Below are positions 2,321 through 17,129 of a stretch of DNA of 20,005 nt, in pieces (within the stretch, counting starts at the first letter, position 1; every line of letters starts with the position of its first letter). The position numbers and the translations under genes are program-made. The notes below the pieces were generated by a model that worked only from the letters and a program-made list of their open reading frames with translations, did no database searches and was not told the origin of the DNA. The stretch comes from a virus, in the IMG/VR virus record IMGVR_UViG_3300005782_000036, positions 1 to 20,005 of that record. One strand, 5' to 3'.

Positions 2321-2348
2321 GTAGGGGCGGTTCGCGAACCGCCCGTAC
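2321..2348 (+). repeat. REP-like palindrome, family R1
   Basis: The sequence starts GTAGGGGCGG, has the perfect palindromic core GGCGGTTCGCGAACCGCC and ends GTAC. It is followed by AGGGGTGTGTCA, which leads directly into the tandem stop codons of the 264-residue tail gene. The GTAG at the foot of a hairpin matches known REP elements served by RAYT transposases. Other R1 copies are at 11389, 12694 and 19940. Confidence 0.9.
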
Positions 2349-2360
2349 AGGGGTGTGTCA

Positions 2361-3155
2361 TCATTTCACCTCATCTGCTGTCAAAATCCCATGCCGCACT
2401 GTCTGAGAAAACGGGAATCGCTTCATAGCTCCTCCGTCATTTAAATAAAGCGGATCCGTGGCCTCGCTCGTGGGATAGGTCAGCCACCACCAGTTCTTGC
2501 CCTCTGCGCCCGCCTGTGTCCACCACAGGGCTAACAGATCGTATTTTGCATCTGTCAGATTTGCGAATTCCGCCTGCAGTACTCGCCGCTTGAACCTGAA
2601 CACCCATTGAGAGCTCCCGCCAGCGCCGGCTACCATCTCCCCGATCTTCTCCTCCTGGTACGGGTCGAACTCTCCATAAGGCCCGAAAGTGAGCTCGATC
2701 CGTTTGCCGGCCCACAGGTTGAATATCTGAGGTTTCGCGCTCAGGCCCGTGATTCTTATTCTCCAGTATTGCCTGCTCACTGCAATGAACGTGCGCCAGT
2801 AGATCAAGTTATTGCTCAAACCGCTTATCGTAACTACCGTAGTCCAGTCCGTGCCATTGGCCGAATGCTGGAAATAGATCGTGGCCGACCCGCCCTCGAG
2901 GGTGAATCCCTTATCCAGCACAAATGTATCGAGCTCCACTGCTGCTGAAAAAAACCAGGTCACCCGCTGCTCGCTCTCGCCCGCGACTCCTTTCCACAGA
3001 GAGCCCCGATTTCGGTCCGTAAGGAAAGCCAGCGGATAGTTCTCATCCTCGCTCAGGGCATTGCCGCTGCCGTCCGTGAATGAAACCGAATCAGCCTCCT
3101 CGAGCTTATTCTGTGCCAGGATGTGAGGAAATTCGCTCAATTTTTCTCCTGTCAT
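2361..3155 (-). CDS. Tail protein with discoidin-like beta-sandwich, after tape measure
   Basis: Encodes 264 residues and has no signal peptide. The central part (about residues 68-140, from VTWFFSAAVELDTFVLDKG through YWRIRITGL) has the aromatic-rich alternating pattern of a discoidin/carbohydrate-binding-like beta sandwich. The last third is rich in W and Y. It lies directly downstream of the tape measure gene, where siphoviruses place the distal-tail protein or its functional replacement, so a tail-tip adaptor is the best inference. Start choice is open: ATG 3155 lies at the edge of a repeat, while a TTG at 3140 has a well-placed AGGAG five bases upstream, which would shorten the protein by five residues. 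The gene ends in TGATGA. Confidence 0.7.
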   Translation of the reverse strand: MTGEKLSEFPHILAQNKLEEADSVSFTDGSGNALSEDENYPLAFLTDRNRGSLWKGVAGESEQRVTWFFSAAVELDTFVLDKGFTLEGGSATIYFQHSANGTDWTTVVTISGLSNNLIYWRTFIAVSRQYWRIRITGLSAKPQIFNLWAGKRIELTFGPYGEFDPYQEEKIGEMVAGAGGSSQWVFRFKRRVLQAEFANLTDAKYDLLALWWTQAGAEGKNWWWLTYPTSEATDPLYLNDGGAMKRFPFSQTVRHGILTADEVK

Positions 3156-3202
3156 TCCCCTCTATCAAGAGGGGTGCCTGCGTCAGCAGGCGGGGTGTGT
3201 TA
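3156..3202 (+). repeat. Stop-codon-linked palindromic repeat (R4 variant)
   Basis: This repeat fills the whole gap between the tape measure gene and the next tail gene. It has the arm CCCCTCTATCAAGAGGGG, then a small palindrome GCCTGCGTCAGCAGGC, then GGGGTGTGTTA. The final TTA is the stop codon (TAA) of the minus-strand tape measure gene. The left arm CCCCTCTATC and the right arm GGGGTGTGTTA are the same as those flanking the R2 element at 5578. Confidence 0.85.
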
Positions 3203-4855
3203 CCCGCTCGGCAGCGATCCGCTGCGCTGCATCTCGTAAATCCGGTTGCGAAGGACCCGGTCTACTCCGGCGCGTCCGAGCGCAGCATCCAGGCCTCCCT
3301 CGCCGCCCGTATTGATCACCACTACCTGCGGCGCCCCTCCGCCCGATCCGCCCTGGCTGCCATAGCTTGTTCCCCCGTATCCCGCGCCTCCGCCGTAACC
3401 TCCGCCTCCGCTGGGCCGTCCTGCAAAACCGCTCATCGATCCGCCCAGAGCCTGAAGTGCAATCCCCGCGGCAACAGCCCCGCCACCTTTGGCTCCCCAA
3501 GAGAGAGCCATTTCAGCCAGACCGGAAAGCATGTACATCTGTCCCTGGCGGATCGCGATCTGGGCCAGTGCGGAAAGCATGCTGCGTTTCATCGCCTCTG
3601 CCGCCGACATCGAGCCAGAAGCCCACACCTGGAAGAAATTGCTCACTCCCAGGGTCATCATGTCCAGGGAAGCTATTGTGAAATCCGAGTATTCTCGCTG
3701 CTTTTTGGTAATATTTCCTAATACATCTTCAAGCTCCGTCATTTTTTGGATATATGCATCTGCAGCCGCGGTTGGAGGCGCGCCAGGAATTTCCATTCCA
3801 GAAGGCATCGGCGCAGCAGGAGGAGCGATTAATCCAGGAAGGGCTGGTCTCGCCGGTAATTCAAATTCCGGGCGGGCTTCAATTTTTCTTTGCTCGGCAG
3901 CAACTCTACCAGCCAGAATACGAGCCATTGCCAGATTGATTTTACCTGTTTGCCATTCAATTTTTTCGTATTCAAATCTCATTCTCTCCGGCATCATAGT
4001 CCGGGCTACTTTAGCCCATTCCATTGCGATTATTTTTTCATCTACTTTTATGAGCCCGAGAGCAACTGCATCAAGGCGGTTAGCAGTATCGAAAAGTTGT
4101 TCGTTTAGACCTCCGACCCCATATGCGAATGTGGTAATCTCTGTGGCTGCATTTGATACGAGAGGGGCAAATGGCTTAAAACCGGATTCCATCAAATCGC
4201 CTATTGCATTCCACATCTGCTGGATCGCGCCCCCGGTAGTCTGGGTCATCTGCTCTTCCATACCGCTCATACGGATTTCAATCCATCTCAAGGCCGCTTC
4301 GAATTTCTCGCTTTTCGGTATCGCTTCATCAAGGATTATCCCATACCTGCTCAACGTTGACGTATATCCTACAGCCGCCTTGGCCAATAGATCCACAGCC
4401 GTTTCAAGACCGCCGGTTTGAACAGCAAAATCCATCGAGGCTCGCATTACCCGTTCCATCTGATCTTCCTGAATGCCGCCCAGGGTAATCAGCTTGGATA
4501 TCATCGGCAACAGCTGCTCGTCTCCATAGCGGCTGGCTCTCTGAAGGCTCGATGCCAGATCCTGATAATGCTGCGAAAGCTCCGGAGTGTATTTCCCGGC
4601 AGACCGCAGTGATGCCTCAACGCGCATAACTGCGTATTCTTGCGCTATCCAGAGATCCATCGATTTTTTGCCCAGCGCCATTATGGCTGCTAATGCCGCC
4701 ACTCCGGCAATTTTAAGCTTCCCGAAAGATTCCTGTACCTTGTCTACCTGCTTTTCTTCATCCTTGAGCGCCTTGGTCTGTTCCTTTACCTCGCGAGTAA
4801 CGACCTTGCCGTCCTTATATTTGATCTCAAGGATAATTGTTTCTTTATCTGCCAT
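3200..4855 (-). CDS. Tail tape measure protein
   Basis: Encodes 551 residues, mostly helical. After a charged N-terminus that looks like a coiled coil (about residues 10-48), there is a hydrophobic segment IAGVAALAAIMALG. It continues with long amphipathic helices, a P/A-rich linker near residues 340-375, a second hydrophobic alanine-rich part near 440-475 and a glycine-rich tail (GGGGYGGGAGYGG). This layout, and its place directly after the frameshifting tail chaperone pair, identify a tape measure protein. It sets tail length and is ejected with the DNA. At 551 residues it is short; by the usual rule of about 0.15 nm per residue the tail would be near 80 nm. The start overlaps the preceding reading frame by 11 bases. 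Confidence 0.88.
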   Translation of the reverse strand: MADKETIILEIKYKDGKVVTREVKEQTKALKDEEKQVDKVQESFGKLKIAGVAALAAIMALGKKSMDLWIAQEYAVMRVEASLRSAGKYTPELSQHYQDLASSLQRASRYGDEQLLPMISKLITLGGIQEDQMERVMRASMDFAVQTGGLETAVDLLAKAAVGYTSTLSRYGIILDEAIPKSEKFEAALRWIEIRMSGMEEQMTQTTGGAIQQMWNAIGDLMESGFKPFAPLVSNAATEITTFAYGVGGLNEQLFDTANRLDAVALGLIKVDEKIIAMEWAKVARTMMPERMRFEYEKIEWQTGKINLAMARILAGRVAAEQRKIEARPEFELPARPALPGLIAPPAAPMPSGMEIPGAPPTAAADAYIQKMTELEDVLGNITKKQREYSDFTIASLDMMTLGVSNFFQVWASGSMSAAEAMKRSMLSALAQIAIRQGQMYMLSGLAEMALSWGAKGGGAVAAGIALQALGGSMSGFAGRPSGGGGYGGGAGYGGTSYGSQGGSGGGAPQVVVINTGGEGGLDAALGRAGVDRVLRNRIYEMQRSGSLPSG

Positions 4856-5225
4856 CTCTGTGAATCATCTCCCTTTCATGCTGGGACCTGGCTGTCAAAA
4901 AAGCGTGATAGATTTCAAAATCACGCCATGAGATTTCTTTCGGACTCGGCCTGAATGCCTCGATATACGAATTCAAAAAGAAAGCATAAAGCGTCTCTGG
5001 AAATTCAGACTGATATTCGAGATATTTCTTTATCTCGCAGACCTCGCAGGAATCGCAAATCGGGCATCCCTGCGGATCATCGCCATTATACAAAAAGCAC
5101 TTTTTTAGCTTATCCTGCCTGGGATCATCCGCATGCTTGAAAGCCTCGCGAATGTCCCTGATCAGTTTTTTTGGAACCCTTCCTCCAATCTGCCTGCCTG
5201 AGACAGAAGAGCGTCCACTGCCCAC
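4845..5225 (-). CDS. Tail assembly chaperone, frameshift extension (T part)
   Basis: This frame overlaps the end of the 5548-5162 gene and lies in the -1 frame relative to it. Translation probably enters by slippage at 5165-5171, adding 106 residues (LIRDIREAFK... to the end) to the upstream protein and giving a fusion of about 234 residues. Independent initiation is unlikely: the only upstream start is a GTG at 5225 with a poor ribosome site. The arrangement matches lambda G/GT, in which the longer product recruits the tape measure protein. Unusually, the extension has four cysteines in a CxxCxxCxxC pattern (CPICDSCEVC), suggesting a bound metal. It overlaps the tape measure start by 11 bases. 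Confidence 0.78.
   Translation of the reverse strand: MGSGRSSVSGRQIGGRVPKKLIRDIREAFKHADDPRQDKLKKCFLYNGDDPQGCPICDSCEVCEIKKYLEYQSEFPETLYAFFLNSYIEAFRPSPKEISWRDFEIYHAFLTARSQHEREMIHRDGR
5162..5171 (-). promoter_or_regulatory. Programmed -1 ribosomal frameshift site A AAA AAC, then TGA
   Basis: On the minus strand the heptamer A AAA AAC occupies 5171-5165 in the correct phase (X XXY YYZ) for the upstream frame, and the stop TGA follows directly at 5164-5162. Slippage by one base continues into CTG ATC AGG in the downstream frame. I did not identify a convincing downstream stem-loop by eye. Confidence 0.85.
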
Positions 5226-5548
5226 TGCTTATGCTCCAGCGGAACGCGATCCTTCCAATCTTTCACGCCGGTAACATCATATCCCTCGACCTTCTTTATA
5301 CAGGCATCCCACAGGAATTCTGCCGACTCCCCGAGATCGAGAATGATCCTGCGCTCGGCGCCGATTCCCTCGGTCCGGTTCAGCCGCCTCTGGTATTCCT
5401 TCTTGTCTTCTGCAGTAGGCTCGCGGAAAACATGAACCAGCTCATATCTGGCTCCCTCGATTACCACTACTCGCCTGATCTTGATTTCCTCTACTTCCTG
5501 GAGAGAGAAAAGTGGCTTGATCGGAACTACCTTAGAATCTTTACTCAT
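5162..5548 (-). CDS. Tail assembly chaperone, zero-frame product (G part)
   Basis: Encodes 128 residues from ATG 5548, which has AGGAGG seven bases upstream. A TTG at 5554 would add two residues but is worse placed. The protein is soluble and acidic/basic mixed, begins MSKDSKVVPIKP and has no membrane segment. It sits between the tail tube and tape measure genes, the standard place of the G-type tail chaperone. Its last sense codons read CAA AAA AAC and are followed at once by TGA, which makes a textbook -1 slippery site. Sequence alone does not place it in a named family; the call rests on position, size and the frameshift signal. Confidence 0.78.
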   Translation of the reverse strand: MSKDSKVVPIKPLFSLQEVEEIKIRRVVVIEGARYELVHVFREPTAEDKKEYQRRLNRTEGIGAERRIILDLGESAEFLWDACIKKVEGYDVTGVKDWKDRVPLEHKQWAVDALLSQAGRLEEGFQKN

Positions 5549-5565
5549 TTGCAATCCTCCTCTAA

Positions 5566-5618
5566 ATCCCCTCTATCGTAGGGACACGGCGCCGCCGTGT
5601 CCGTACAGGGGTGTGTTA
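5566..5618 (+). repeat. REP-like palindrome, family R2, with shared outer arms
   Basis: The core at 5578-5606 starts GTAGGGACACGG and ends CCGTGTCCGTAC. It is flanked on the left by CCCCTCTATC and on the right by AGGGGTGTGTTA. The final TTA is the stop codon (TAA) of the tail tube gene. It fills nearly all of the gap between the tail tube and tail chaperone genes. Confidence 0.88.
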
Positions 5619-6656
5619 CGTGGCAAAATACTCTGGAATCGTACCCTCAGTGGTCAATATCTTTATCGGGCTGTTCAGTTCCCCTGTCGAATCGTGATGG
5701 CCCTCGATATCCAGCTCGATATGAAGCAGTCCCTCCTCATAGCCGTAGTCCACCCCGTTATAAACTGCTTTCGGTATGGTGATCTCTACCTCGTCATGGT
5801 CCTCTGGCTCCGAGCCGGTGATCAATGCTCCCAGGCACGATACCACTACCGCGGCCTCTGTACCCAACTGCTGCGCAGCCCGGAACGTAGCCAGGTCCGC
5901 AGCCGCTGCCAGAATCCGCAACGATAGGCTCATGTTCCGCTCAGGCGTGTACGGCCAAACTGCAGGATATATCCTGTTCGCCTCCGCGGCCGCTTTCTGC
6001 CAGGCCAGCTCCTCGTTGATCCCTGATTCGAGAGTGAGCTCGAAAGAGCGAAGCTGAGCTCTTATGTCCGAATCGATTTCGAACTTCCCGGCGTAATTAT
6101 ACAGGTAGCGCAATGCGGCTGCATCTGGAAACGTGTAGGCTGTCAGGTCGCCGATCTTGGTTCCTGTCAGGGAAGCCGATGCCTCGAGCCGGTTCCGTCC
6201 CTCCCCGCGGATAGTCAGGCTGCGCACGGCCAGGTCCTGGACGCCGTAATCGTTTGCATCCTCGAGGATCGCCAGGGTGGTCTGGTAAGCCTCCGGCCTG
6301 GTTCCCAGAGGCAGGAATTTTGCCGTGTGCCCGTAAACCTTGCCTGCCTCGATTATCGATTCTGTTTCGTCCGAGAAAAACATGGCGATTAGATAACCTA
6401 AAAAATCCACGGGCAGCGGCTGCATCGGGATCTCGAGCTGAACGAACTGCCTGATCTTGCCCCTCTGAGTCTCCCAGTCATGGCCAGAGCCGACCATTCC
6501 CCGGTCCGTCCAATGCTCGGCATTCTCGTTAATAATGAGCGGATCTGCTAATTTCAGATGTTTGGTCAGATCGGCTTCTTCCACCGGCGTGCCGAAAGCT
6601 GACTGCTTCTTGATCGACCAGGCGATCTCGCTTGCCGATCTCTGTACGATTGCCAT
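5616..6656 (-). CDS. Phage tail tube protein (major tail protein)
   Basis: Encodes 346 residues from ATG 6656, preceded by GTGAGGT. An in-frame upstream ATG at 6689 would start inside a repeat and has no ribosome site, so I rejected it. The protein begins MAIVQRSASEIAWSIKKQSA and has the pattern of long tail tube proteins: an N-terminal stretch with AFGTPVEEADLTKHLKLADP, a central part with LTIRGEGRNRLEASASLTG and a beta-rich C-terminal half ending in EGTIPEYFAT. It follows the tail terminator gene and precedes the chaperone pair, which is the normal place. No sheath gene accompanies it, so the tail is probably non-contractile. The exact Pfam family is uncertain. Confidence 0.78.
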   Translation of the reverse strand: MAIVQRSASEIAWSIKKQSAFGTPVEEADLTKHLKLADPLIINENAEHWTDRGMVGSGHDWETQRGKIRQFVQLEIPMQPLPVDFLGYLIAMFFSDETESIIEAGKVYGHTAKFLPLGTRPEAYQTTLAILEDANDYGVQDLAVRSLTIRGEGRNRLEASASLTGTKIGDLTAYTFPDAAALRYLYNYAGKFEIDSDIRAQLRSFELTLESGINEELAWQKAAAEANRIYPAVWPYTPERNMSLSLRILAAAADLATFRAAQQLGTEAAVVVSCLGALITGSEPEDHDEVEITIPKAVYNGVDYGYEEGLLHIELDIEGHHDSTGELNSPIKILTTEGTIPEYFAT

Positions 6657-6674
6657 TTTTACCTCACTTTTTTT

Positions 6675-6711
6675 AATCCCCCTTATCAAAGGGGGACACA
6701 GGGGGTTGTTA
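6675..6711 (+). repeat. R4 palindromic repeat at gene end
   Basis: Contains CCCCCTTATCAAAGGGGG, a near-perfect hairpin, followed by ACACAGGGGGTTGTTA. The last three bases are the stop codon (TAA) of the gp37-like gene. On the transcribed strand it would form a GC-rich hairpin right after the stop. Confidence 0.88.
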
Positions 6712-7146
6712 CACCTGTTGTCTCACCTGCCAGGTTTCGATTGTCATTGTATAGACTGTTGCGCCTAAAGTGAGCATAAACGAATCCGGAGCGATCCCCA
6801 GAATACTGATCGGCGCCAGGCCGTCGATCCCCAGCCTCTGGCCCATAATTGCATCGCGCACGTCCTCGATCAGAGCATAAGTGGATTCCAGACTGTAGCG
6901 CGCACTGCGGAAATCCTCTGCTGCAAGAGTCAAGCGAAAGGTCAATATCTCCTTGGCTATCGAACCGTCGCTTGCCAGCTCCTCGTGAACCTCGCCGTCC
7001 AGGGCCACCCCGCAAAAAGGAAAGTTGATTATCTCAGCATAGCCGAATCCCGGAAATGATTTGACTGTCCTAGTACTCAAGCTCGATACCTGAGACACTA
7101 TCCTGGAAATCAGCGCGTCCGAAATAGCTTTTATGCTCGATGCCAT
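6709..7146 (-). CDS. gp37-like tail terminator / completion protein (DUF1834-like)
   Basis: Encodes 145 residues and begins MASSIKAISDALISRIVSQV. Size, the alternating beta/alpha pattern and position directly after the gpG-like gene match the Mu gp37 (DUF1834) class, which caps the tail tube at the head-proximal end. The start codon abuts the stop of the upstream gene with no gap, so the two are probably translationally coupled. The family name is inferred from context and overall look rather than from a diagnostic motif. The gene ends exactly in an R4 repeat. Confidence 0.65.
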   Translation of the reverse strand: MASSIKAISDALISRIVSQVSSLSTRTVKSFPGFGYAEIINFPFCGVALDGEVHEELASDGSIAKEILTFRLTLAAEDFRSARYSLESTYALIEDVRDAIMGQRLGIDGLAPISILGIAPDSFMLTLGATVYTMTIETWQVRQQV

Positions 7147-7647
7147 TTAACGGGATCTCCCTGTGCGCAGAAAACGGCCTGCCATGAATTTTATTTTTTT
7201 CAGCAGCTCGGGATCCTGCTTTCTAAGGTTCGTGGCCACCACTATGAATTTTTTCTTTTTGCCGAACAAGCCGAAAACCCCACCCTTTTTCTTGCCTACG
7301 CCGCGGATCTGCAGGAAATAAGCATGCTTTGCCTCGTTCAGAATCCTTATGGCATTCCCAGCACGCTTGTAAACATATCCTCCTTTCAAGGTTCCCTCAT
7401 CGATCAGCTTGCGCGTTCTACCTCGCTTTTTTTTATATTTGATCGTTTTAGCTTCCAGTCCGGGCCAGGGTGCGCCGGGTGGCCCGCCGCCGGAGACGCT
7501 CTGTCCTGCCGCACTGCGGAAATAGCCCTTATGGGTTTTTACAGCCTCCCTGCCAATCGCCTGTAAGGCCTCCCGCGGATTGAGAGCTCGTTTGCCCACC
7601 CCCTCGAGCCGCTTGATCGCCTTGTCAAATCCTTTTGAAGCCGCCAT
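7147..7647 (-). CDS. Phage virion morphogenesis protein (Mu gpG-like)
   Basis: Encodes 166 residues from ATG 7647. It begins MAASKGFDKAIKRLEGVG, is strongly basic and contains the segments GREAVKTHKGYFRSA, GPPGAPWPGLEAKTIKYK and HAYFLQIRG. These are typical of the phage virion morphogenesis (tail S / Mu gpG) family, which completes the tail end before it joins the head. The ribosome site is AGGAG followed by eight bases, and it is the last unit of a 27-copy heptamer array. An open frame continues upstream through the array to 7926, but that part is only RRQESGV-type repeat peptide and is not considered native. Neighbours are the DUF1320 and gp37-like genes, as in Mu-type phages. Confidence 0.85.
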   Translation of the reverse strand: MAASKGFDKAIKRLEGVGKRALNPREALQAIGREAVKTHKGYFRSAAGQSVSGGGPPGAPWPGLEAKTIKYKKKRGRTRKLIDEGTLKGGYVYKRAGNAIRILNEAKHAYFLQIRGVGKKKGGVFGLFGKKKKFIVVATNLRKQDPELLKKIKFMAGRFLRTGRSR

Positions 7648-7652
7648 TTGTC

Positions 7653-7841
7653 TGACTCCTGACTCCTGTCTCCTGTCTCCTGACTCCTGTCTCCTGTCTC
7701 CTGACTCCTGACTCCTGTCTCCTGTCTCCTGACTCCTGTCTCCTGTCTCCTGACTCCTGACTCCTGTTTCCTGACTCCTGACTCCTGTCTCCTGTCTCCT
7801 GACTCCTGACTCCTGTCTCCTGACTCCTGACTCCTGTCTCC
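7653..7841 (-). repeat. Heptanucleotide tandem array, 27 copies
   Basis: On the plus strand there are exactly 27 contiguous 7-base units, each TGACTCC or TGTCTCC, with a single variant TGTTTCC at 765-771 of the 7000s (7765-7771). On the transcribed minus strand each unit reads GGAGTCA or GGAGACA, so AGGAG recurs every 7 bases. The array ends eight bases from the gpG-like start codon and begins about 10 bases from the stop of the DUF1320 gene. All three minus-strand frames are open through it. Similar heptamer arrays (STRR) are known from cyanobacterial chromosomes. Confidence 0.97.
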
Positions 7842-7849
7842 TGATCCCT

Positions 7850-8326
7850 TCACAATTTATCCAATTTCTTCTTCGTGTATTTTCGCGGATCGTCGTCATC
7901 CAGGTCGTCATCCGTGTCCAGGGCATCGGTCCTATACTGGGCTTCCGGCTCTTTCGCCTGGGCTCCGGATGTGTCCAGCCCCAGGCTCAGCTTGCCGTTC
8001 GAGGCTGCCTGGAGTTTGCTCAGGCAGGCCTTGTACTGTGTGAGCCAGTCGTCACTCACTGCCCGCCGGCGAAGGTATAGATAATAGACCGCCATCTGTG
8101 CGCTCAAACGGTTGATCTCATCCGGCACAGGCGAATATGTGCGCAGACTCGGCCAGCGCCCCAGGAGATAGCTGTCGATCTCACCGTCTGCAGAGGCGAT
8201 CACTTCGTTTAATACATCGATTACTTCAGGACTTAAAATAGTAGCCTGATCGCTTTTGCTCGCTAGCTGGACAATTTCATCTTCCTCTGCCCATCGGGTT
8301 AGATCGCTGATTTCGCTGTACGCCAT
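7850..8326 (-). CDS. DUF1320 family head-tail connector (Mu gp36-like)
   Basis: Encodes 158 residues and begins MAYSEISDLTRWAEEDEIVQ. The opening, followed by ADGEIDSYLLGRWP and a later LSAQMAVYYLYLRRR, is the characteristic pattern of DUF1320 proteins such as Mu gp36. These are thought to form the connector ring between portal and tail. The C-terminus is an acidic D-rich stretch followed by a lysine-rich end. The start lies 6 bases after the stop of the exported-protein gene. The stop overlaps a GTG (GTGA at 7850-7853) that could start translation into the heptamer array. Confidence 0.85.
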   Translation of the reverse strand: MAYSEISDLTRWAEEDEIVQLASKSDQATILSPEVIDVLNEVIASADGEIDSYLLGRWPSLRTYSPVPDEINRLSAQMAVYYLYLRRRAVSDDWLTQYKACLSKLQAASNGKLSLGLDTSGAQAKEPEAQYRTDALDTDDDLDDDDPRKYTKKKLDKL

Positions 8327-8332
8327 GTTTGC

Positions 8333-9160
8333 TCACTCGCTCTGAATTATTAAATTCTCTCCCGAGATTGCTACCGTATCCGCCGCAACCAGACCGATCC
8401 TCTCAACCTTCATCCAGGGCATATTGTCAATACCTGTAACTGCCTTATAATTCCAGGTCCCGGCTTCGGTGCTATCGACAGTCCATGTACTGTCCGCCAG
8501 GGTATCCGATGATACGAATGAGGCATAATACCCGGCATGGGATGTTGAGTATAGAGACCTGTATAAAGCCGCTACGGTGTCCGCTGGCTGATATCCGAAT
8601 ACCATGCTCTTGACACCGTAGCCGATCCAGACCGGCTGGCTGCTCAGTGCTCCCGTGCCTGATACGTTTGGACTTGAATACCGTAATCGGAAAACATACT
8701 GGCTCCCCTGCGTGATCTTGGCGCTGGTTATATAAAATTCGTCTCCGGCGGCCATTCCTGAAGAATCGGGTACGATATAAAACAGGCTGTCTGGAACCAG
8801 GCTATTTTTGAGCGCAGCGCTGTCAGGTATCCAGAAGGCAGCATACGAGGCTCCGTAATGCCGCTGGGAATAGACTCTGCCAAAGTAATTGACAGTGTAA
8901 TTATAGGTCACTGTCAGGCCGTCTCGCGCCTCGACAATCACTCTGGCCTGGATCGGTTTATTCATCAATGATTGCTTTGACAGATTCCAGCCGGACCAGT
9001 CCAAAGCGGTTCCGGAGATATTCCTGTCGGTTACTGCAAATGAGGCCACCGGAAACTCGATAGATGCCGGGTTCGTATTCTGAGCTACTCCTGCCAGATA
9101 GCAAAAGCCCAGAATCAAAAACACAACCCCGGCTAACAGGATTAAAAGTCGTTTGAACAT
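8333..9160 (-). CDS. Exported or membrane-anchored protein of unknown function
   Basis: Encodes 275 residues. The N-terminus MFKRLLILLAGVVFLILGF is a short basic stretch followed by a hydrophobic segment, i.e. a signal peptide or signal anchor. The cysteine after LGF is not in a good lipobox, so I do not call a lipoprotein. The remaining 250 residues are rich in S, T, Y and D, look beta-stranded and are nearly cysteine-free, as in envelope or surface proteins. No family is recognised. It is located between the HeH/LEM and DUF1320 genes of the head module, where phages normally carry only cytoplasmic virion proteins. A role at the host surface, such as blocking superinfection, is possible but not shown by the sequence. 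Confidence 0.6.
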   Translation of the reverse strand: MFKRLLILLAGVVFLILGFCYLAGVAQNTNPASIEFPVASFAVTDRNISGTALDWSGWNLSKQSLMNKPIQARVIVEARDGLTVTYNYTVNYFGRVYSQRHYGASYAAFWIPDSAALKNSLVPDSLFYIVPDSSGMAAGDEFYITSAKITQGSQYVFRLRYSSPNVSGTGALSSQPVWIGYGVKSMVFGYQPADTVAALYRSLYSTSHAGYYASFVSSDTLADSTWTVDSTEAGTWNYKAVTGIDNMPWMKVERIGLVAADTVAISGENLIIQSE

Positions 9161-9192
9161 AATATGAACTCCTCGCTGCCTAAGTAGTAATC

Positions 9193-9281
9193 TCCCCCTT
9201 AAAAAAGGGGGACACAGGGGGTTGTCTCGCTCCCCCCTTCTGTAGGGACACGGCGTGCCGTGTCCATGTGGGGGTGTGTCA
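9193..9281 (+). repeat. R4 and R2 palindromic repeats between two genes
   Basis: Two elements lie in tandem: R4 at 9193-9225 (CCCCCTTAAAAAAGGGGG hairpin, ending GGGGGTTGT) and R2 at 9242-9268 (GTAGGGACACGG...CCGTGTCC). GGGGGTGTGTCA follows the R2; its last three bases are the stop codon (TGA) of the HeH/LEM gene. No gene fits in this gap. Confidence 0.88.
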
Positions 9282-9563
9282 TTCCCCTCTCTTCTCCAGC
9301 TCTTCCTGGATCAACACGGCCCTCTCCCGGTTGTTTTTCGCACCGGAAATATCAACCTCGAGCTCGGCGGCCCTGGCCTCCAGCTCAGCCCTGTTCATCT
9401 TGCCGGGCCTCTTTTTCTCCGCCTGTTTTTCCTCTGCGACCGAGATGGTTTTGCAAAGTCCCCGCTCGACCCCGCTCTCGACCAGCTCGTCCGGGATATT
9501 CACGATTGAGCCTACAGGCTTTTCAAAGGCCGCGATCCATGGTTTTAGCAGTTTGACTTTCAT
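9279..9563 (-). CDS. HeH/LEM-domain virion-associated protein (Mu gp35-like)
   Basis: Encodes 94 residues from ATG 9563, which has AAAGGAGA just upstream. An in-frame ATG at 9647 lies in repeat sequence and is rejected. The N-terminal half (MKVKLLKPWIAAFEKPVGSI...) is followed by a charged linker (EEKQAEKKRPG) and a C-terminal helix-extended-helix motif, MNRAELEARAAELEVDISGA and onward. This organisation occurs in small proteins encoded next to the capsid gene in Mu-like phages (gp35 class). Its role in the virion is not established; it may help assembly at the head vertex. Confidence 0.68.
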   Translation of the reverse strand: MKVKLLKPWIAAFEKPVGSIVNIPDELVESGVERGLCKTISVAEEKQAEKKRPGKMNRAELEARAAELEVDISGAKNNRERAVLIQEELEKRGE

Positions 9564-9586
9564 TGTTTCTCCTTTCGTTTTATTCC

Positions 9587-9739
9587 CCTTCTGTAGGGGC
9601 GCCCGGCTGGACGCCCCTACAACGAATGTCATTCCCCGTAGGGACACAGCGTGCCGTGTCCGCCTTCTGTAGGGGCGTCCGGCTGGACGCCCCTACAATG
9701 AATGTCATTCCCCGTAGGGACACGGCGCCGCCGTGTCCG
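9587..9739 (+). repeat. Tandem R3-R2-R3-R2 palindrome cluster (76-base period)
   Basis: Four hairpins fill the gap after the capsid gene: R3 at 9593-9620, R2 at 9638-9661, R3 at 9669-9696 and R2 at 9714-9738. R3 reads GTAGGGGCG(C/T)CCGGCTGG then ACGCCCCTAC. The two R3-R2 pairs are offset by exactly 76 bases. The two R2 cores differ (AGCGTG versus GGCGCCG) and the two R3 cores differ by one base, so the copies have diverged. Confidence 0.9.
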
Positions 9740-9751
9740 CAAGGGTTGTTA

Positions 9752-10705
9752 TCACGCATAAGCGGTCGTGATCAGGTAGCCGCAGCCCACGTCCACGACT
9801 TTCTCGGTCTGCTCGATCAGGCCCTCGATCACCGTGGCGTGACCCCTGTTATTCCGGTAGCGGTACATGGCAATATCCAGCGCTCCGGCTATCGGCCTGC
9901 GGAACTGGTAGGCCAACGAAAGCGATCTCTTGCTCGGAGCTCCCTTTTCCACATAAGCCACGAGTACGCTGTTGTCATCCCACAGAAAATCAAGGCTCTG
10001 GGCAGCCACTCCTGCAGCAGCCTCGTCAAACAGCGCTGTCGGGATCATCACCTCGAGCCCGAAAATCTTGGGCGGCAGATCGCCGTTGACCAGCAGGGTC
10101 GAATCAGTATGTACGACCAGGTCGCGGATCTTGCTGTCTTTCTTGGCAGCCACTGCGATATGAGGCGGAATGACTATCGTGTTCGGCTCGACTCCTGCCT
10201 TCTTGCGCACGTTCAGCTTGGCAACATCGATATCGTCCTCGATCTTTACCCCGCTCGCCGCGTTCCAGGCAGCCGTGGCCGCACCGTTTTCGGTGATATA
10301 AGTCGCGCTCATCAGCTTGCCCACGATCCGCACCTCGATCCCGAGCCTGAGCTTGCGCGTGACCAGGGCCGCCGAGTCCCGCTCCGGATTGATCACGGCT
10401 AAGTCGGCATTGTCTATTTCCTCGTCGGGGATCAGCTCACACAGGCCGTGCTGCTGGCACGCGTATGTCTCCGAGCTGTACGCGCGCTTGATCTCGTTGG
10501 AGGGTGTTGCCGGAGCGCGGATCGAGTCGTAATCATCCCTCAATCCCGCGACATTGGAGAACACATAATACTTGCCGGTTGTGGTCGGGACTCTCACCAC
10601 CGGGCAGAGCCGGTCGGCAATGAACGGCCCGCCGAGACGCATGTCCTCCATTGCGAACTGGGTCAGGACCGTGTTCAGATTCTGGGTTGAATATCTGTCA
10701 GCCAT
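9752..10705 (-). CDS. Major capsid protein
   Basis: Encodes 317 residues, starting MADRYSTQNLNTVLTQFAME with a consensus AGGAGA ribosome site. Length, lack of export signals, the pattern of an N-terminal arm followed by mixed alpha/beta sequence (YVFSNVAGLRDDYDS, FGLEVMIPTALFDEA, FLWDDNSVLVAYVEKG) and position after the protease/scaffold and decoration genes identify the HK97-fold capsid subunit, equivalent to Mu gpT. The C-terminal part (SLAYQFRRPIAGALDIAMYR) resembles capsid proteins of uncultured siphoviruses. It ends with tandem stops TGA TAA that run into a repeat. It shares a 38-base leader with the upstream decoration-like gene. Confidence 0.85.
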   Translation of the reverse strand: MADRYSTQNLNTVLTQFAMEDMRLGGPFIADRLCPVVRVPTTTGKYYVFSNVAGLRDDYDSIRAPATPSNEIKRAYSSETYACQQHGLCELIPDEEIDNADLAVINPERDSAALVTRKLRLGIEVRIVGKLMSATYITENGAATAAWNAASGVKIEDDIDVAKLNVRKKAGVEPNTIVIPPHIAVAAKKDSKIRDLVVHTDSTLLVNGDLPPKIFGLEVMIPTALFDEAAAGVAAQSLDFLWDDNSVLVAYVEKGAPSKRSLSLAYQFRRPIAGALDIAMYRYRNNRGHATVIEGLIEQTEKVVDVGCGYLITTAYA

Positions 10706-10738
10706 TTTTATCTCCTGGTAGTCAAATCAATTTCGTAA
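10701..10738 (-). promoter_or_regulatory. Duplicated translation leader, capsid copy
   Basis: The 38 bases from the start codon region upstream (with the ribosome site AGGAGATAAAAATG) match 36 of 38 bases of 11256-11293, which precedes the decoration-like gene. The two differences are adjacent to the ribosome site. Confidence 0.85.
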
Positions 10739-10740
10739 TT

Positions 10741-10852
10741 TCCCCCTTACCAAAGAGGGACACAGGGAGTTGTATTCCCCATTCCGTAGGGACACGGCGC
10801 CGCCGTGTCCGTGTGTCTGTCTCCCTCTTGCCAAAGGGGGATATAGGGAGTT
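10741..10852 (+). repeat. R4-R2-R4 repeat cluster
   Basis: R4 at 10741-10773 (CCCCCTTACCAAAGAGGG...GGGAGTTGT), R2 at 10786-10810 (GTAGGGACACGGCGCCG...) and a second, more degenerate R4 at 10822-10852 together fill the gap between the decoration-like gene and the capsid gene. No open frame of interest is present. Confidence 0.85.
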
Positions 10853-10861
10853 CTCCCCGGC

Positions 10862-11260
10862 TCAGCCTGCGGCTTTCGCCACGGGGATATCCATGACAAA
10901 CACAGAGATCAATTGACCTGCAGCACTTGAGGCCATCTTGGCCTTGCCGATGATTTTCTGCGAAGCAGAATACATCGTTGCCGCACCATCTACCCGACCA
11001 GTGCTCGAACAGACCAGATAAAGCCCCTCAGTGATTGCATTGTCATGGGCCAGAGCAAGGCAAGTGCTACCCGGCCCTGCCACGCGACATTCTTTGCCGG
11101 CATAACCGATTTCCGTTGTAATGCCCTCTCCATCCTCACCCGCGCCCGCTGCCACCAGCACAGAGCTGGAGAGCTTTACATAAGTGCCTTTGGGGATCTC
11201 TGTGTCCCCGACCACGTAAGTATCTACGTTGACAAAATTATTTCTCAATTTAAGAGCCAT
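10862..11260 (-). CDS. Capsid decoration / cement-like protein (DUF2190-like)
   Basis: Encodes 132 residues, beginning MALKLRNNFVNVDTYVVGDT. It has a repeated beta pattern with small residues (IPKGTYVKLSSSVLVAAGAG, ALAHDNAITEGLYLVCSS, KIIGKAKMASSAAGQLISVF) and no membrane segment. Small beta proteins of this type (DUF2190, cement or decoration proteins) are encoded directly upstream of the major capsid gene in Mu-type head modules, and they coat the expanded shell. The family assignment rests on size, pattern and position, not on a unique motif. AGGAGA precedes the ATG in a leader almost identical to that of the capsid gene. Confidence 0.62.
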   Translation of the reverse strand: MALKLRNNFVNVDTYVVGDTEIPKGTYVKLSSSVLVAAGAGEDGEGITTEIGYAGKECRVAGPGSTCLALAHDNAITEGLYLVCSSTGRVDGAATMYSASQKIIGKAKMASSAAGQLISVFVMDIPVAKAAG

Positions 11261-11293
11261 TTTTATCTCCTGGTTATCAAATCAATTTCGTAA
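11256..11293 (-). promoter_or_regulatory. Duplicated translation leader, decoration-gene copy
   Basis: This copy holds the ATG and AGGAGA of the decoration-like gene and matches the capsid gene leader at 10701-10738 in 36 of 38 bases. It ends at a repeat cluster, as does the other copy. Confidence 0.85.
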
Positions 11294-11300
11294 CAATTTC

Positions 11301-11365
11301 GTAGGGACACAGGGCAGGGCTCGTTAGCGAATGCGTCACGAGCAGGGATGTGGCCGCCGTGTCCG
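11301..11365 (+). repeat. Composite R2 element with a second palindrome in its loop
   Basis: The R2 5' half GTAGGGACAC (11301-11310) and 3' half GCCGCCGTGTCC (about 11354-11363) are separated by some 43 bases. That insert carries its own inverted repeat GCTCGT (11319-11324) / ACGAGC (11338-11343). It looks like one repeat inserted in the loop of another. Confidence 0.7.
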
Positions 11366-11375
11366 CAGGGGATTT

Positions 11376-11498
11376 ATTCCCCTCTATCGTAGGGGCGGTT
11401 CGCGAACCGCCCGTACAGAAATTTCTCTTTCCCTTTATCAAAGGGGGCCTGAGGGGGATTTCCCCTCCCCCTTAAAAAAGGGGGATACAGGGGGTTGT
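11376..11498 (+). repeat. R1-R4-R4 repeat cluster downstream of protease gene
   Basis: R1 at 11389-11416 is preceded by the shared left arm CCCCTCTATC. Two R4 copies follow, at 11430-11461 (GGGGGCCTGAGGGGGATT form) and 11466-11498 (CCCCCTTAAAAAAGGGGG...GGGGGTTGT). The last ends 7 bases from the stop codon of the protease/scaffold gene. Confidence 0.88.
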
Positions 11499-11505
11499 CC
11501 TTGCC

Positions 11506-12111
11506 TCAGGCAGCCACCTGGGCCCTGATCCTTACCGAGGCCTCGGAGAACGAAAGCTTCTCGTTGCCGGGTACCTCCATCAGGTCGTAGCAGGCCGCGG
11601 TGTGCTTGTCGTCCTCGGTTTCCTCGCCGCCCCTCATCTTGATCACCCTCTTCAGGGCAGCCCTTTCACTGGCCATGCGGCCTGTGAGCTGGATATTCTG
11701 GCCAGGAGCCGAATGCTCGCCGAGCAGGCCGTTGTCCTTGCGCTCGGCCACTTCCTCGAGGATCGCCTTGCGGCCCTCGGTGTCCAGGCGCTCGCCGAGC
11801 TTGGTATAGCCTGAGCCCTCGGCAGGAGTGAGCCGGCTCTCTTTCTTGGCCTGCTCGATTTTCTCCTTGAACTCGGACAGCTCGGCAGCTTTCTGCGTCT
11901 CGGCCAGCTTGGCCTCGGCCTCGTTCGCCCGCTTCTTTTCAGCCTCGAGCGAAGTGTTCAGCTCAGCCGTCTTGGATTCGGACTCGGAGAGCCGGGCCTC
12001 GGCCTGCTTCAACTTCTCGGAGAGCTCTGTCTTTTCAGCAGAGCCGAAAAAACTCTTGAGTGTATCCGTGACACTCGCGGTTACGCTTTTGGTGATTGTC
12101 GCCTCGTCCAT
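11506..12111 (-). CDS. Internal-start scaffold protein (Mu gpZ / lambda Nu3-like)
   Basis: Within the protease gene, codon 182 is an ATG (12111-12109) preceded by AAGGAGGAG at an ideal distance, in the same frame. Translation from here gives a 201-residue protein, MDEATITKSVTASVTDTLKS and onward, consisting only of the coiled-coil scaffold part. This is the same arrangement as Mu Z inside I and lambda Nu3 inside C, where the scaffold is made in excess of the protease. The ribosome site is stronger than those of most genes in the window. Confidence 0.85.
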   Translation of the reverse strand: MDEATITKSVTASVTDTLKSFFGSAEKTELSEKLKQAEARLSESESKTAELNTSLEAEKKRANEAEAKLAETQKAAELSEFKEKIEQAKKESRLTPAEGSGYTKLGERLDTEGRKAILEEVAERKDNGLLGEHSAPGQNIQLTGRMASERAALKRVIKMRGGEETEDDKHTAACYDLMEVPGNEKLSFSEASVRIRAQVAA

Positions 12112-12654
12112 GGTTGTCTCCTCCTTTTTTTCGGACGATTCCTTCTCCCCATTATTAAAGGGGGACAAAGGGGGTTGTTCTTCCCCGGCCGGTTCTATCC
12201 AGACGAATGAATTAGAGGCGCCGCCATGAAACAAATGGGGCACCGGGTCCAGGCCTTTAGCCGCGGGGGGCGCCGCTCCCAGAAATGAGAGCGCAGTCAA
12301 ATAGACCCTGCCTGTTGAAATGTGCGGCATATCCATTGCTACTGAGCGGCTGCGATAGGCCCCTGATTTGAGCCATTCTCGCAGTTGATCGCTGACCTTG
12401 GTCAGCTTTGCCTGGAGCTTGTCGCCTGCCACGCGCAGCTCGGAGACCCAGCCTAAGGCAGGGCCGAATCCCCAATGATCCGTATCTATCGGGGCCTCCT
12501 GGAGCTTGGGTGAATAATCGGCAGCCATGTCTTTCAGATCCTGCTGAGTGATCTTAATTATACTCGGCTTGCCGCCTTTCGAGCCTTCCCATTCACCGAC
12601 GCGCGTTATATCGAACCAGCCCTGGTCTATATGATAATCAGTTATTTCGTCCAT
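11506..12654 (-). CDS. Mu I-like capsid protease fused to scaffold
   Basis: Encodes 382 residues. The N-terminal part (about 1-155) is the Mu I-type prohead protease: it has APIDTDHWGFGPALGWVSEL near residue 55 with His60, GAYRSRSVAMDMP near 98-110 with a candidate catalytic serine, and ALSFLGAAPPAAKGLDPVPH near 121. A linker of about 30 residues follows. The C-terminal part (from about 182) is a charged, E/K/A-rich coiled coil (about 200-285), as in scaffold proteins. The protease cleaves scaffold and capsid subunits during head maturation. Residues 159-170 (EQPPLSPFNNGE) are encoded by an R4 repeat. AGGAG six bases before ATG 12654 supports the start. Confidence 0.9.
   Translation of the reverse strand: MDEITDYHIDQGWFDITRVGEWEGSKGGKPSIIKITQQDLKDMAADYSPKLQEAPIDTDHWGFGPALGWVSELRVAGDKLQAKLTKVSDQLREWLKSGAYRSRSVAMDMPHISTGRVYLTALSFLGAAPPAAKGLDPVPHLFHGGASNSFVWIEPAGEEQPPLSPFNNGEKESSEKKEETTMDEATITKSVTASVTDTLKSFFGSAEKTELSEKLKQAEARLSESESKTAELNTSLEAEKKRANEAEAKLAETQKAAELSEFKEKIEQAKKESRLTPAEGSGYTKLGERLDTEGRKAILEEVAERKDNGLLGEHSAPGQNIQLTGRMASERAALKRVIKMRGGEETEDDKHTAACYDLMEVPGNEKLSFSEASVRIRAQVAA
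12146..12178 (+). repeat. R4 repeat inside the protease/scaffold gene
   Basis: CCCCATTATTAAAGGGGG followed by ACAAAGGGGGTTGT matches R4 with a few changes. It lies in frame in the linker between protease and scaffold and encodes QPPLSPFNNGE. The surrounding domains are intact. Confidence 0.88.
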
Positions 12655-12669
12655 ATTATCTCCTGCATT

Positions 12670-13743
12670 TTAAAAACGCCGTGTCCGCACTTTGTAGGGG
12701 CGGTTCGCGAACCGCCCATATTCATTCATCCCTGCAGGAAAATTTATCTCCTGCATGATTGTGCTATAAAGCAACTCTGCGCTCATCAATTCAGCCGGCG
12801 GCATATCAAATCCTTTGGCTGGCTGTACATCCGGATAATCAGTATCCGGCTTGATTTTCTCTGTCTCTACATCGAGCACTGAGACCTCGATCACTTCACA
12901 GCGGCATCGATGATGAAGCGGTGGATAATAAACATCCCAGAAATCGTCATCCCGCGAATAAACCTGTCCGTCCAGAGGTCCGCAGATATCGCATACAGCC
13001 TCGTCTCCTACTGTTACAAACTGAAGGTACGGGTAAAATTGTCTCAGTCCCTCTGTATCCCGCTGAAGCTCGCTCCACCTGGCTGCGTTGGCTGCCGAAT
13101 GGATATTGGTCAGCAGCGTTGTTTCCAGGTGGTACGGGTTTGCCCTGGTAACTCCCAGGGCGCCCCATGCTTCTTTCGCTGCCTTTAAAAATTCTCCCCT
13201 GGTCAGGTCTCCCTTGATCGCATCATCGACCAGGCCCTTGACCGAGCGCACGAGCAACTCATTTTCAGTGTTCGCTATTGTAAACGCCGCTGCATGAGTT
13301 CTTTTAGCCACGGCTGCGAACTCCGACTTTGTCATCGGAATCTTGTTCTTGAACCACCTCCAGGATTCACCTGCAGAGCCGATCGGGGCCTCTGTCCAGT
13401 CAGTATATTTCAGCCTGGCTGCCTGAGCTGTCAGGCCCTTGATTTCTTTCTTTTCAGCCCACTGGAAATATCCCCTCTGGTGAGCGTCGCGCCATGTCAG
13501 CGCCCGCCCGATCATCTTGCTGCTCAAAAGCACCCCGCTGACATGCTCCACCACGCGTTTCGGCACTACCGGGTTCCAGAAATTCTCTATCCAGTTCAGG
13601 CTCTCAGCTCCGACAATCGCTTTCTCGTGGCTGGCCAGCCAATCGTTCCACAGCCGGATCGCCTCTGCCCGCGACTTCCCGTAATGCCGGCCTAATATCT
13701 TTTCCCTGCGCTTGGCTAACTGTTTCCGGCCCTTTTTCCTCAC
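12670..13743 (-). CDS. Mu F-like minor head morphogenesis protein
   Basis: Encodes 357 residues. The C-terminal half holds the Phage_Mu_F domain: HSAANAARWSELQRD near 215, then CDICGPLDGQVY (Cys251, Cys254) and YYPPLHHRCRCEVIEV (His277, His278, Cys280, Cys282), a probable metal site. This is the SPP1 gp7/Mu gp30 class, which sits at or near the portal and is needed for head assembly. The start is GTG 13743, overlapping the portal stop as GTGA, so the two genes are coupled. The last 16 residues (from Tyr342, YGRFANRPYKVRTRRF) are encoded by repeat sequence, so the native C-terminus has been replaced or extended. Confidence 0.92.
   Translation of the reverse strand: MRKKGRKQLAKRREKILGRHYGKSRAEAIRLWNDWLASHEKAIVGAESLNWIENFWNPVVPKRVVEHVSGVLLSSKMIGRALTWRDAHQRGYFQWAEKKEIKGLTAQAARLKYTDWTEAPIGSAGESWRWFKNKIPMTKSEFAAVAKRTHAAAFTIANTENELLVRSVKGLVDDAIKGDLTRGEFLKAAKEAWGALGVTRANPYHLETTLLTNIHSAANAARWSELQRDTEGLRQFYPYLQFVTVGDEAVCDICGPLDGQVYSRDDDFWDVYYPPLHHRCRCEVIEVSVLDVETEKIKPDTDYPDVQPAKGFDMPPAELMSAELLYSTIMQEINFPAGMNEYGRFANRPYKVRTRRF
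12676..12720 (+). repeat. R2 remnant plus R1 palindrome inside the F-like gene
   Basis: GCCGTGTCCGCAC (half of an R2 element) is followed by an R1 copy at 12694-12720 (GTAGGGGCGGTTCGCG...). Both lie in frame in the 3' end of the F-like gene and encode its last 16 residues. Confidence 0.88.
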
Positions 13744-15071
13744 AGACCACTGGCCTCCTCCTGTTTCTTGATCTCATCCAGGTCCTCTTCCCCTGCCTCC
13801 ATCTCCGGGAACCTTACCGCCGGCATCTTTTTCCCAGCTAAAGGAATATCGTCATCCGCCGGCGCCGGCATCCCGACCTGCTCGCGCAGCCAGTCCTCGC
13901 CCACAGGCAGGGCGAGTTCGTTGACCGCCACCGAAATCCCGCGCAGATAGGCCTGGATATCTTTCTCCTCTTCGAACGGGATCCGGAACCTGGGATACAT
14001 GCCCCGGTCCTGTGCTCCGAAATTTATATCCACTAGCCTGACAATCACCTCATCGAGCTGCTCCTGGTTCCAGCGTGAATCCTCCTCGCAGATATGCTGC
14101 TGCTGCTTGCTCTGGAACTTGGCCAGGGCATGCGTGCCTGCCTCGCTTTCCGTGCTCAGGGTCTGGCCCAGGATCGCCTTTGCATACTGGCGGTCCACAT
14201 ATTCCTCGATCAGGAAACGGAACAATTGGACCACGCCGGAATGCTTCATGTCCAGGACTTTGAAATCCGTACCCTCCGGCCCGATCCCGACCGAGTTTGC
14301 GATCATCTGCTTGAGGACCTCCAGCAATGCGTTCTGTTCGTCTTTCGAGATCCCGCGCGGGTAATTGGCCCACAGGAACGGCGCGCCGAACCTTTCGATA
14401 AATCTTACCAGCTCCTTGATTCCGTTCGACTTGAAAAACCACAGCGGATATAGCTCCCTTAACAGTCCTTCTCCATAGGGCGTTTCATCTGAGCCCCAGG
14501 TGTTGCTCAGGAAATTCATCTGCGGCAACTCTTTTTTACCCAGTCCTCCTGAGCCAGTCAGAACCAGCTCGCTCTTCTCATCGAAACGGAAACGCTCCGG
14601 ATCGCGGGTCTTGAATTCCTGGATACCGTAATAGCCGTCCGGCCTCAGCTTGTAGATTATCTCCACCGGGAGAAAGCCGTAAGCAATGGCTCGAAAAAAC
14701 CGGCTCCGCGATAGATGAAATCCTTTAATGTCCGCAAATATATCGCTGATAAATTTCGCCATGCCCGCTTCATCATCCGGATCGTCAGGCCCCGGATTTA
14801 TATTATAGCCCTGGGCCATGACTATATTGGCTCGCATCCGTAAACACATCGCAAGCTGCGTATCCTTGCGCAGCATCGTGCCGTATAGCTTATAGCCCTC
14901 AGTGGAATGATCCTCGAGGGTTTTATCCGATACTGTCTGCAATCCGCCGAAAAGAAGGCCCAGCGCCCTGTCAGCCAGCGGACTCGATAGCTCTTTGCCG
15001 ACATGTATCTTTACTGTCGGCCTGCCGCCGGGCCTGCGCCGCGGCCTAGTGCGATTTGTATCTTTTGCCAT
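13740..15071 (-). CDS. Portal protein, DUF935 family (Mu gp29-like)
   Basis: Encodes 443 residues, starting MAKDTNRTRPRRRPGGRPTV after a GAGGG ribosome site. DUF935 marks include MRANIVMAQGY (about 79-89), FFRAIAYGFLPVEIIY (125-140), DETPYGEGLLRELYPLWFFK (195-214), ERFGAPFLWANYPRG (226-240) and LGQTLSTESEAGTHALAKFQ (301-320). These fit a full-length Mu-type portal. It forms the dodecameric ring through which the terminase pumps DNA and to which the connector attaches. The C-terminus is acidic. Overlap GTGA with the F-like gene suggests coupled translation, and 16 bases separate it from the upstream CCGHG gene. Confidence 0.94.
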   Translation of the reverse strand: MAKDTNRTRPRRRPGGRPTVKIHVGKELSSPLADRALGLLFGGLQTVSDKTLEDHSTEGYKLYGTMLRKDTQLAMCLRMRANIVMAQGYNINPGPDDPDDEAGMAKFISDIFADIKGFHLSRSRFFRAIAYGFLPVEIIYKLRPDGYYGIQEFKTRDPERFRFDEKSELVLTGSGGLGKKELPQMNFLSNTWGSDETPYGEGLLRELYPLWFFKSNGIKELVRFIERFGAPFLWANYPRGISKDEQNALLEVLKQMIANSVGIGPEGTDFKVLDMKHSGVVQLFRFLIEEYVDRQYAKAILGQTLSTESEAGTHALAKFQSKQQQHICEEDSRWNQEQLDEVIVRLVDINFGAQDRGMYPRFRIPFEEEKDIQAYLRGISVAVNELALPVGEDWLREQVGMPAPADDDIPLAGKKMPAVRFPEMEAGEEDLDEIKKQEEASGL

Positions 15072-17123: not shown

Positions 17124-17129
17124 ATTTTT
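17100..17129 (+). repeat. Direct repeat, left copy (contains terL start)
   Basis: This 30-base sequence ending CTCGGACTGGTCATATTTTT recurs at 17912-17941 with one mismatch (TATATC here, TATGTC there). On the minus strand it holds the terL ATG and codons for MTSPRYKK. The two copies bracket the plus-strand cassette. Confidence 0.95.

Follow-up and report, generated by a model that had tools for sequence, protein, structure and literature searches.

GTAG-tagged and untagged palindromic repeats at the late-gene ends of a Mu-like phage: a probable case of repeated invasion

Introduction

Repetitive extragenic palindromes (REPs) are regarded as repeats of the chromosome that a domesticated host transposase moves, and their spread between genomes is an open question. 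The GTAG-tagged REP superfamily carries GTAG at one end of a short stem-loop and comprises many families whose stems and loops can be exchanged (Di Nocera et al. 2013, PMC3733652). These repeats lie within about 20 bp of 3' ends, the TAG of the tag can be a stop codon and several phyla harbor them (PMC3733652). The genes of RAYT transposases are described as flanked by two inverted REPs (PMC2817692; PMC8266576). Here we analyse the IMG/VR record IMGVR_UViG_3300005782_000036, taken whole (20,005 bases) and referred to as the window, which is the head-and-tail gene block of a Mu-like phage. This block has probably been invaded repeatedly by two non-autonomous kinds of palindromic repeat, GTAG-REPs (R1, R2 and R5) and the untagged R4.

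Results

With a strict search for GTAGGG and an ensuing hairpin of at least 7 bp, we detected 10 GTAG hairpins in the window; 100 dinucleotide shuffles gave 0.01 on average and never more than 1. Four of them have the R1 core, five the R2 core and one the R5 core, and a second R5, which contains mismatches, lies at 9592 outside the strict count. Arms of 9-10 bp and loops of 0-2 bases are common to all ten, which fits the GTAG-REP stem (about 6-13 bp with a short loop), and in all ten the tag is on the plus strand, antisense to the late genes. The GTAG is unpaired or only partly pairable in nine of the ten, because the bases that follow the 3' arm differ from CTAC; three strict copies end in GTAC, so that three of the four tag bases could still pair, as seen in the fold of 5555-5621. 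The R5 at 9669 is a full palindrome and so is its near-copy at 9592. Inverted pairs forming one unit, as in REPINs, were not found among the ten strict window copies, which share one orientation. A previous sequence-only reading of the window had recognised the GTAG at the hairpin foot as REP-like, and tag and stem support this for R1, R2 and R5. With their intergenic or near-3'-end placement, to which the R1 at 12694 and, for the untagged family, the R4 at 12145 are exceptions within open reading frames (ORFs), these three fit the GTAG-REP superfamily.

R4 is a second family with a different architecture, namely a C-arm, a loop, a G-arm, about 4 bases and a second G-arm (CCCCCTT-n-AAGGGGG-n-GGGGG), and none of its copies carries GTAG. 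It bears on the outer frame that several repeats had been said to share: the frame is indeed shared, but just two copies are complete and possess both halves, at 3157-3202 and 5568-5616. The exact left half CCCCTCTATC is present at 3157-3166, 5568-5577 and 11379-11388, while the element at 2321 has the right half only, the one at 11389 the left half only, and the frame at 9230-9278 is degenerate. In the related record L235 (Gp36 64%, portal and capsid 71-72%), a coreless bare frame at 5036 reads CCCCTCTATC-AAGAGGGGATTT-AGGGGTGTGT, which is the R4 plan. The window copies have this middle piece swapped for a tagged R2 (5568-5616) or for AAGAGGGG and another hairpin (3157-3202). The frame is thus an R4-type element that has a GTAG-REP or another hairpin where its inner G-arm and spacer (AAGAGGGGATTT in the bare L235 copy) would stand. 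Since the R4 middle piece is replaced by other hairpins, arms and cores look interchangeable, and the window copies together with the bare L235 frame support the modular exchange of cores that had been proposed. The replacement may have come about when a hairpin inserted and the sequence between the two similar G-arms was then lost.

The repeats cluster at stop codons. The motif T(AA/GA/AG)CA(CA/AC)CCC has five matches when both strands are searched, each of them on the strand of the late genes and at the stop of a gene (9279, 6709, 5616, 3200 and 2361), and a stop followed by CA(CA/AC)CCC occurs with a mean of 0.1 and a maximum of 1 in 200 shuffles. Six stops had been reported to carry this motif: an element lies at or within 3 nt of all six, but the exact motif is found at five, the letters past the double stop at 9752 being CAACCCT. 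The element starts 0 nt past the stop at 3200, 5616, 6709 and 9279, and 3 nt past it, behind a second stop, at 2361 (TGATGA) and 9752 (TGATAA). At the capsid gene, the only comparable site, the element follows the stop and does not create it, the stop position being unchanged in the relative L001, which has no repeats at this place. Most long gaps of the window are occupied by elements.

In the tail part of the block, where all elements are given on the plus strand as in the rest of the window, an R1 hairpin with the right frame half CCGTACAGGGGTGTG (2321-2357) lies 3 nt past the stop of gene 2361-3155. The complete frame CCCCTCTATC...GGGGTGTGTTA with the untagged core GCCTGC-GTCA-GCAGGC (3157-3202; folding z -5.59) abuts and includes the stop of the gene for a short tape-measure-like protein (3200-4855, minus strand). 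The other complete frame (5568-5616, R2 core 5578-5602; z -2.85) abuts the stop of the tail-tube-like gene (5616-6656, minus), and an R4 (6678-6710; C-arm, ATCA, G-arm, 4 nt, second G-arm, TTGT) abuts that of 6709-7146. Further on, an R4 upstream of gene 8333-9160 (9194-9226) is followed by the degenerate frame (9230-9278, R2 core 9242-9265), which abuts the stop of 9279-9563. A 76-bp tandem duplication of R5 and R2 begins with the R5 palindrome TGTAGGGGCGCCCGGCTGGACGCCCCTACA (9592-9621) and an R2 hairpin (9638-9661), and continues with the second R5 (9668-9697) and the R2 hairpin (9714-9738) downstream of the major head (capsid) gene (9752-10705, minus). Most elements lie within positions 2321 to 12720, the span first assigned to them, and an R1 upstream of the holin-like gene 19426-19905 (19940-19963) extends their range beyond it.

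In order to follow the elements through related viruses, we compared orthologous gene ends, beginning with L232 (IMG/VR 3300028837_000487), whose identity to the window is 97.6% in the terminase and 82-87% elsewhere. Six palindrome pieces of the window are absent from L232, and no element was found in L232 that the window lacks. An R4 (10740-10774) belongs to a 51-nt stretch before the capsid gene that is missing at the orthologous site, while the adjacent R2 (10786-10810) and R4 (10821-10856), the latter downstream of 10862-11260, are common to both viruses. That gene (minus strand) encodes 132 aa at the place of a decoration protein and is named by position only. Before it, the R2 at 11300-11370 has its loop region split by a palindromic stretch (GCTCGT...ACGAGC) and is unsplit in L232, where it also shows a paired change in both arms, GGACACGG/CCGTGTCC becoming GGATACGG/CCGTATCC. 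Also at this place, the left frame half with R1 (11379-11418, R1 at 11389-11412) and the R4 downstream of the protease/scaffold gene (11465-11499; stop 11506) are not in L232, and the R4-type element between them (11428-11462) has its right part in common with the R4 of L232. The remaining differences lie in coding sequence. An R4 (12145-12179) is part of a 36-nt in-frame linker stretch of the Mu protease/scaffold ORF (11506-12654, minus), before an internal MDEATI start, and an R1 (12694-12717) at the 3' end of the MuF ORF (12670-13743, minus) encodes, jointly with a half R2 beside it, the last residues of the protein; neither is found in L232.

L235 is more remote, and its 13 strict hairpins, most of which have different cores, lie at gene ends that are either orthologous or next to orthologous ones. 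Inverted pairs of strict copies occur there, the TAG of one tag is the stop of Gp36, and after the orthologue of 6709-7146, where the window has R4, TAACACACCCC..GGGG surrounds another core. No strict GTAG hairpins were found in L236, L237 and L238 (capsid 52-74%). This comparison uses gene lists of the window, L235, L236, L237 and L238 set by hand from ORFs and blast matches, and counts strict GTAG hairpins only, R4 and the bare frame being scored 0. Presence, absence and replacement are thus all seen at orthologous gene ends, and the L232 differences, the other cores of L235 and the element-free L236-L238 indicate that elements have been gained and replaced. A stretch of 7,373 bases in L001 shows 99.8% identity to the window and has the same elements, so that no independent gain can be read from this relative. 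Seven viral contigs with the R2 core were found, three of them from this lineage (L001, L232 and L235), and GTAGGGGCG was counted 8 times across the 1.118 Mb of 79 portal relatives, which is close to an estimated expectation from base composition.

The 99.8% match of L001 ends in the last capsid codons (L001 7330-7389 against window 9768-9830) and continues as another lineage, as might be expected of either a mosaic phage or an assembly join. We rejected the idea that the elements are special in marking recombination breakpoints: the L001 break precedes the repeats, and the identity step of L232 is at the terminase end, where no element is present.

We then looked at the distribution of the repeats in cellular genomes. 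R2 cores are present in at least 119 genome stretches of Cyanobacteria, Bacillota, Bacteroidota, Chloroflexota and, by their record titles, several other phyla, and exact R1 in 3 of 23 genomes, one of which has 43 matches on both strands. Among the matches listed (119 loci), 260 elements comprise 62 in convergent, 96 in unidirectional and 19 in divergent gaps, 44 at locus edges and 39 inside called genes, the last figure being an upper bound since simple gene calling misjudged several small ORFs of the window. Gap lengths predict 30.1 convergent, 97.3 unidirectional and 49.5 divergent, and among these same matches 62 of the 96 unidirectional copies are nearer the upstream stop. A smaller set of 19 elements shows no such bias (4 of 8 unidirectional copies nearer the stop), and in genome G011 the proportion is 12 of 16. 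The gene-end bias holds in cells too, though not in every set, and the placement at gene ends noticed in the window is supported by the window stops as well as by the gaps of these cellular loci. Because of the gene calling, and because most of its loci had been picked for R1, a viral set with 51 elements in 11 loci, 23 of the elements lying inside called genes, does not enter into the placement claim.

These counts raise the possibility that the phage merely mirrors a REP-rich host, in which a long-resident prophage would collect REPs at the background rate. Such a scenario is compatible with repeated invasion and denies the phage a special role; we regard it as a serious possibility, if not the favoured one. 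Pattern matches per cellular genome range from 0 to 539 in 27 genomes, so that element-rich genomes do exist (539 matches in 6.0 Mb), and R1 is found in 17 viral contigs, including other kinds of phage. The density is however 0.40/kb in the window (8 matches) and 0.92/kb in the L235 record (17 in 18,424 bases) compared to at most 0.14/kb in the 27 cellular genomes, in a comparison for which several viral records were picked for carrying R1 and whose genomes do not include the true host. Searches for that host gave no match to the exact frame in genome contigs, none to the R4 motif in 23 genomes or in 64 genomes of the G004 phylum, and none to the capsid protein in partial samples of three phyla (395, 14 and 39 genomes); 400 genomes of the G013 phylum yielded three distant capsid matches of 27-30% identity.

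Two further contigs carry such repeats. L022 (IMGVR_UViG_2531839184_000003), which has a Mu-type transposase match, contains seven R4-type elements, several near early-region genes, and provides a second phage setting for R4. The portal/minor-head contig L017 has six R1-like hairpins at 3948-9539, two of them inside the portal ORF.

Alternatively, the palindromes could be the phage's own regulatory 3' hairpins, kept by selection, with a REP likeness that is borrowed or convergent and no need for present mobility. Folding energies of seven stretches of the window are lower than those of shuffles (z -2.2 to -5.8), and both this and the filling of most long gaps agree with such a role. So do hairpins of unrelated sequence after the capsid stop, which are found in the window, L235, L001 (by eye), L237 and L238, and not in L236. 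They hint weakly at a 3' protective role that REPs may have taken over in the window lineage, and capping of mRNAs by the hairpins is plausible. On the other hand, the same cores are spread over many cellular phyla, elements lie inside ORFs and are nested in one another, and presence/absence differences from L232 are frequent, which makes a purely regulatory origin unlikely. A search of Rfam 15 for described structured RNAs returned no match at gathering score in the window, L235 or L232. Intrinsic termination or attenuation between late genes, which the GC-rich stems past stop codons could suggest, is a very improbable role, since the hairpins lie within an operon whose downstream genes need expression, and terminator-like sites (a GC-rich hairpin with a sense-strand U-run) show no enrichment, with 15 against 10.0 +/- 3.7 in shuffles, the three sites that overlap elements, one being the R1 at 12698 and two touching the end of the 9230-9278 frame, all reading against the gene direction.

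Besides the genes named above, the late genes of the window, which are all on the minus strand, include Gp36 (7850-8326), the Mu portal (13740-15071) and a GpA-type terminase (15390-17123); the nearest named phages show less than 30% identity by portal, terminase and capsid. Several features of other kinds were observed. About 27 copies of a 7-base unit, CAGGAG(A/T) in the gene direction, occupy 7652-7844 between Gp36 and the next gene as a long series of ribosome-binding-site-like motifs, and L237 and L238 have three GGAGATAAA-like units ahead of Gp36. A 39-nt leader containing a ribosome-binding site and start precedes both the capsid gene (10700-10738) and the neighbouring small gene (11255-11293), the two copies being 95% identical. 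In L232 the capsid leader is similar to it but the small gene has a shorter one, a difference that points to copying from leader to leader. Imperfect AT-rich tandem repeats, whose periods are 47 and 94 bases, extend over 1989-2180 upstream of the 1-1818 gene and lie beside three copies of a AAATGCCC..CAAG motif (1937, 2181 and 2271). A 30-base direct repeat, 97% identical (17100-17129 and 17912-17941), flanks a small group of plus-strand genes including a helix-turn-helix protein, and a small ORF between terminase and portal (15088-15375) is not in L232. Finally, a degenerate R2-like palindrome in the opposite orientation lies at 18002-18029, at the 3' end of gene 18026-18463.

Discussion

Repeated invasion of the phage block by GTAG-REPs and R4 remains the reading that we consider probable. 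Copies would enter by means of a trans-acting enzyme, which for the tagged ones is most likely of the RAYT/TnpA-REP kind. Since copies elsewhere break genes, those that persist would mostly be found in the short interval separating a stop from the next ribosome-binding site, or in frame within protein linkers. Once in place, the elements may serve as hairpins at the 3' side of the mRNA and shield the upstream cistron, a role that would be in keeping with their cluster around the capsid gene.

Several observations weigh against this interpretation. The flanks of the 51-nt difference from L232, checked for a target-site duplication of the type left by miniature inverted-repeat transposable elements, share TAC only and show no clear duplication, and the direction of change is inferred from outgroups. 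The two elements inside ORFs, in MuF (12694-12717) and in the protease/scaffold (12145-12179), mean that placement is not confined to stops. Neither the window nor nine other virus records, all ten of which may be fragments, yielded a Y1 transposase. Y1_Tnp matches were obtained in 17 of 32 genomes or records (17 of 23 cellular, 0 of 9 viral) and in all four of a further set, and G003, G018 and G020, with 247, 224 and 222 pattern matches, gave none in assemblies of uncertain completeness. At just one of 37 Y1 loci (L248, in G011) does an element lie within 100 bp of the Y1 gene, and the elements of L303 and L304 are further off than that. Two genes of RAYT size in G011, that of L248 among them, have a GTAGGGGCACGGCATGCCGTGCCCC element nearby, at distances of 70 and 82 bp and on one side of each gene; outside this genome no general RAYT link was found among the Y1 loci and genomes tested. 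Since the virus records and three element-rich genomes gave no Y1 match and near elements are confined to one locus of 37, the RAYT route is no more than possible. The sequence-only reading had envisaged one mobilisation system and had proposed to look for a RAYT gene. The first idea is not supported, as the two families differ in tag and architecture, as no virus record tested has a RAYT and as G003, G018 and G020 gave no Y1_Tnp match; the search for the gene found none in the 10 virus records, and RAYT-sized genes near elements in one genome.

A bolder proposal is that Mu-like phages carry REPs in their own right, that invasion, nesting and exchange at late-gene junctions run faster than in chromosomes, and that the repeats are used as 3' mRNA caps setting virion stoichiometry and are spread by phages across phyla. 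We hold this to be improbable, somewhat more so than a purely regulatory origin; if true, phage spread would help explain why REP cores of 24-25 nt are the same in Cyanobacteria, Chloroflexota, Bacillota, Bacteroidota and other phyla. In any case, a phage lineage with changing REPs at orthologous gene ends provides a small comparable system for gain, nesting and replacement, and a possible vehicle for REP spread. The question of useful mRNA hairpin versus tolerated parasite also becomes testable in an operon that needs tuned amounts of capsid, tube and scaffold. Like some of the elements described here, the small dispersed repeats of cyanobacteria (Elhai et al. 2008) are reportedly very short and nest in other repeats.

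Among known systems, the window elements resemble the GTAG-REP superfamily in their tag, stem-loop, exchangeable cores, 3'-end placement and, in L235, a tag-derived stop, the GTAGGG cores being likened by description only. They differ in setting, since the repeats described in PMC3733652 are chromosomal (phage being mentioned in its main text only for CRISPR spacers) and those reported here belong to the virion operon of a phage and are nested within another repeat family. Tag and palindrome are also of the substrate type of RAYT/TnpA-REP (Nunvar et al. 2010, PMC2817692; PMC8266576), and Haemophilus GTAGGGTGGGCTT..AGCCCACC, which occurs with a RAYT, has the same layout. In contrast to REPtrons, the phage records have no RAYT, and the G011 genes have GTAGGGGCACGGCATGCCGTGCCCC on one side each instead of two inverted REPs. 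Clustering of palindromes is shared with REPINs and BIMEs (Bertels and Rainey 2011, PMC3116915), whereas the ten strict window copies have one orientation and inverted pairs appear in L235. A link between a Mu-like phage and REPs is known from the hotspots of transposable phage Ab30 at BIMEs (PMC5977238), although in that case the phage inserts beside chromosomal REPs, while here it is the phage operon itself that contains them. Searches of the open-licence literature of PubMed Central, which omits most subscription papers, returned no account of REPs within the virion operon of a phage. Tagged REPs at 3' ends, tag-derived stops (PMC3733652) and REPs as hotspots of a transposable phage (PMC5977238) are already known; what this phage lineage adds is their density in a virion operon, their nesting and their turnover at orthologous stops.

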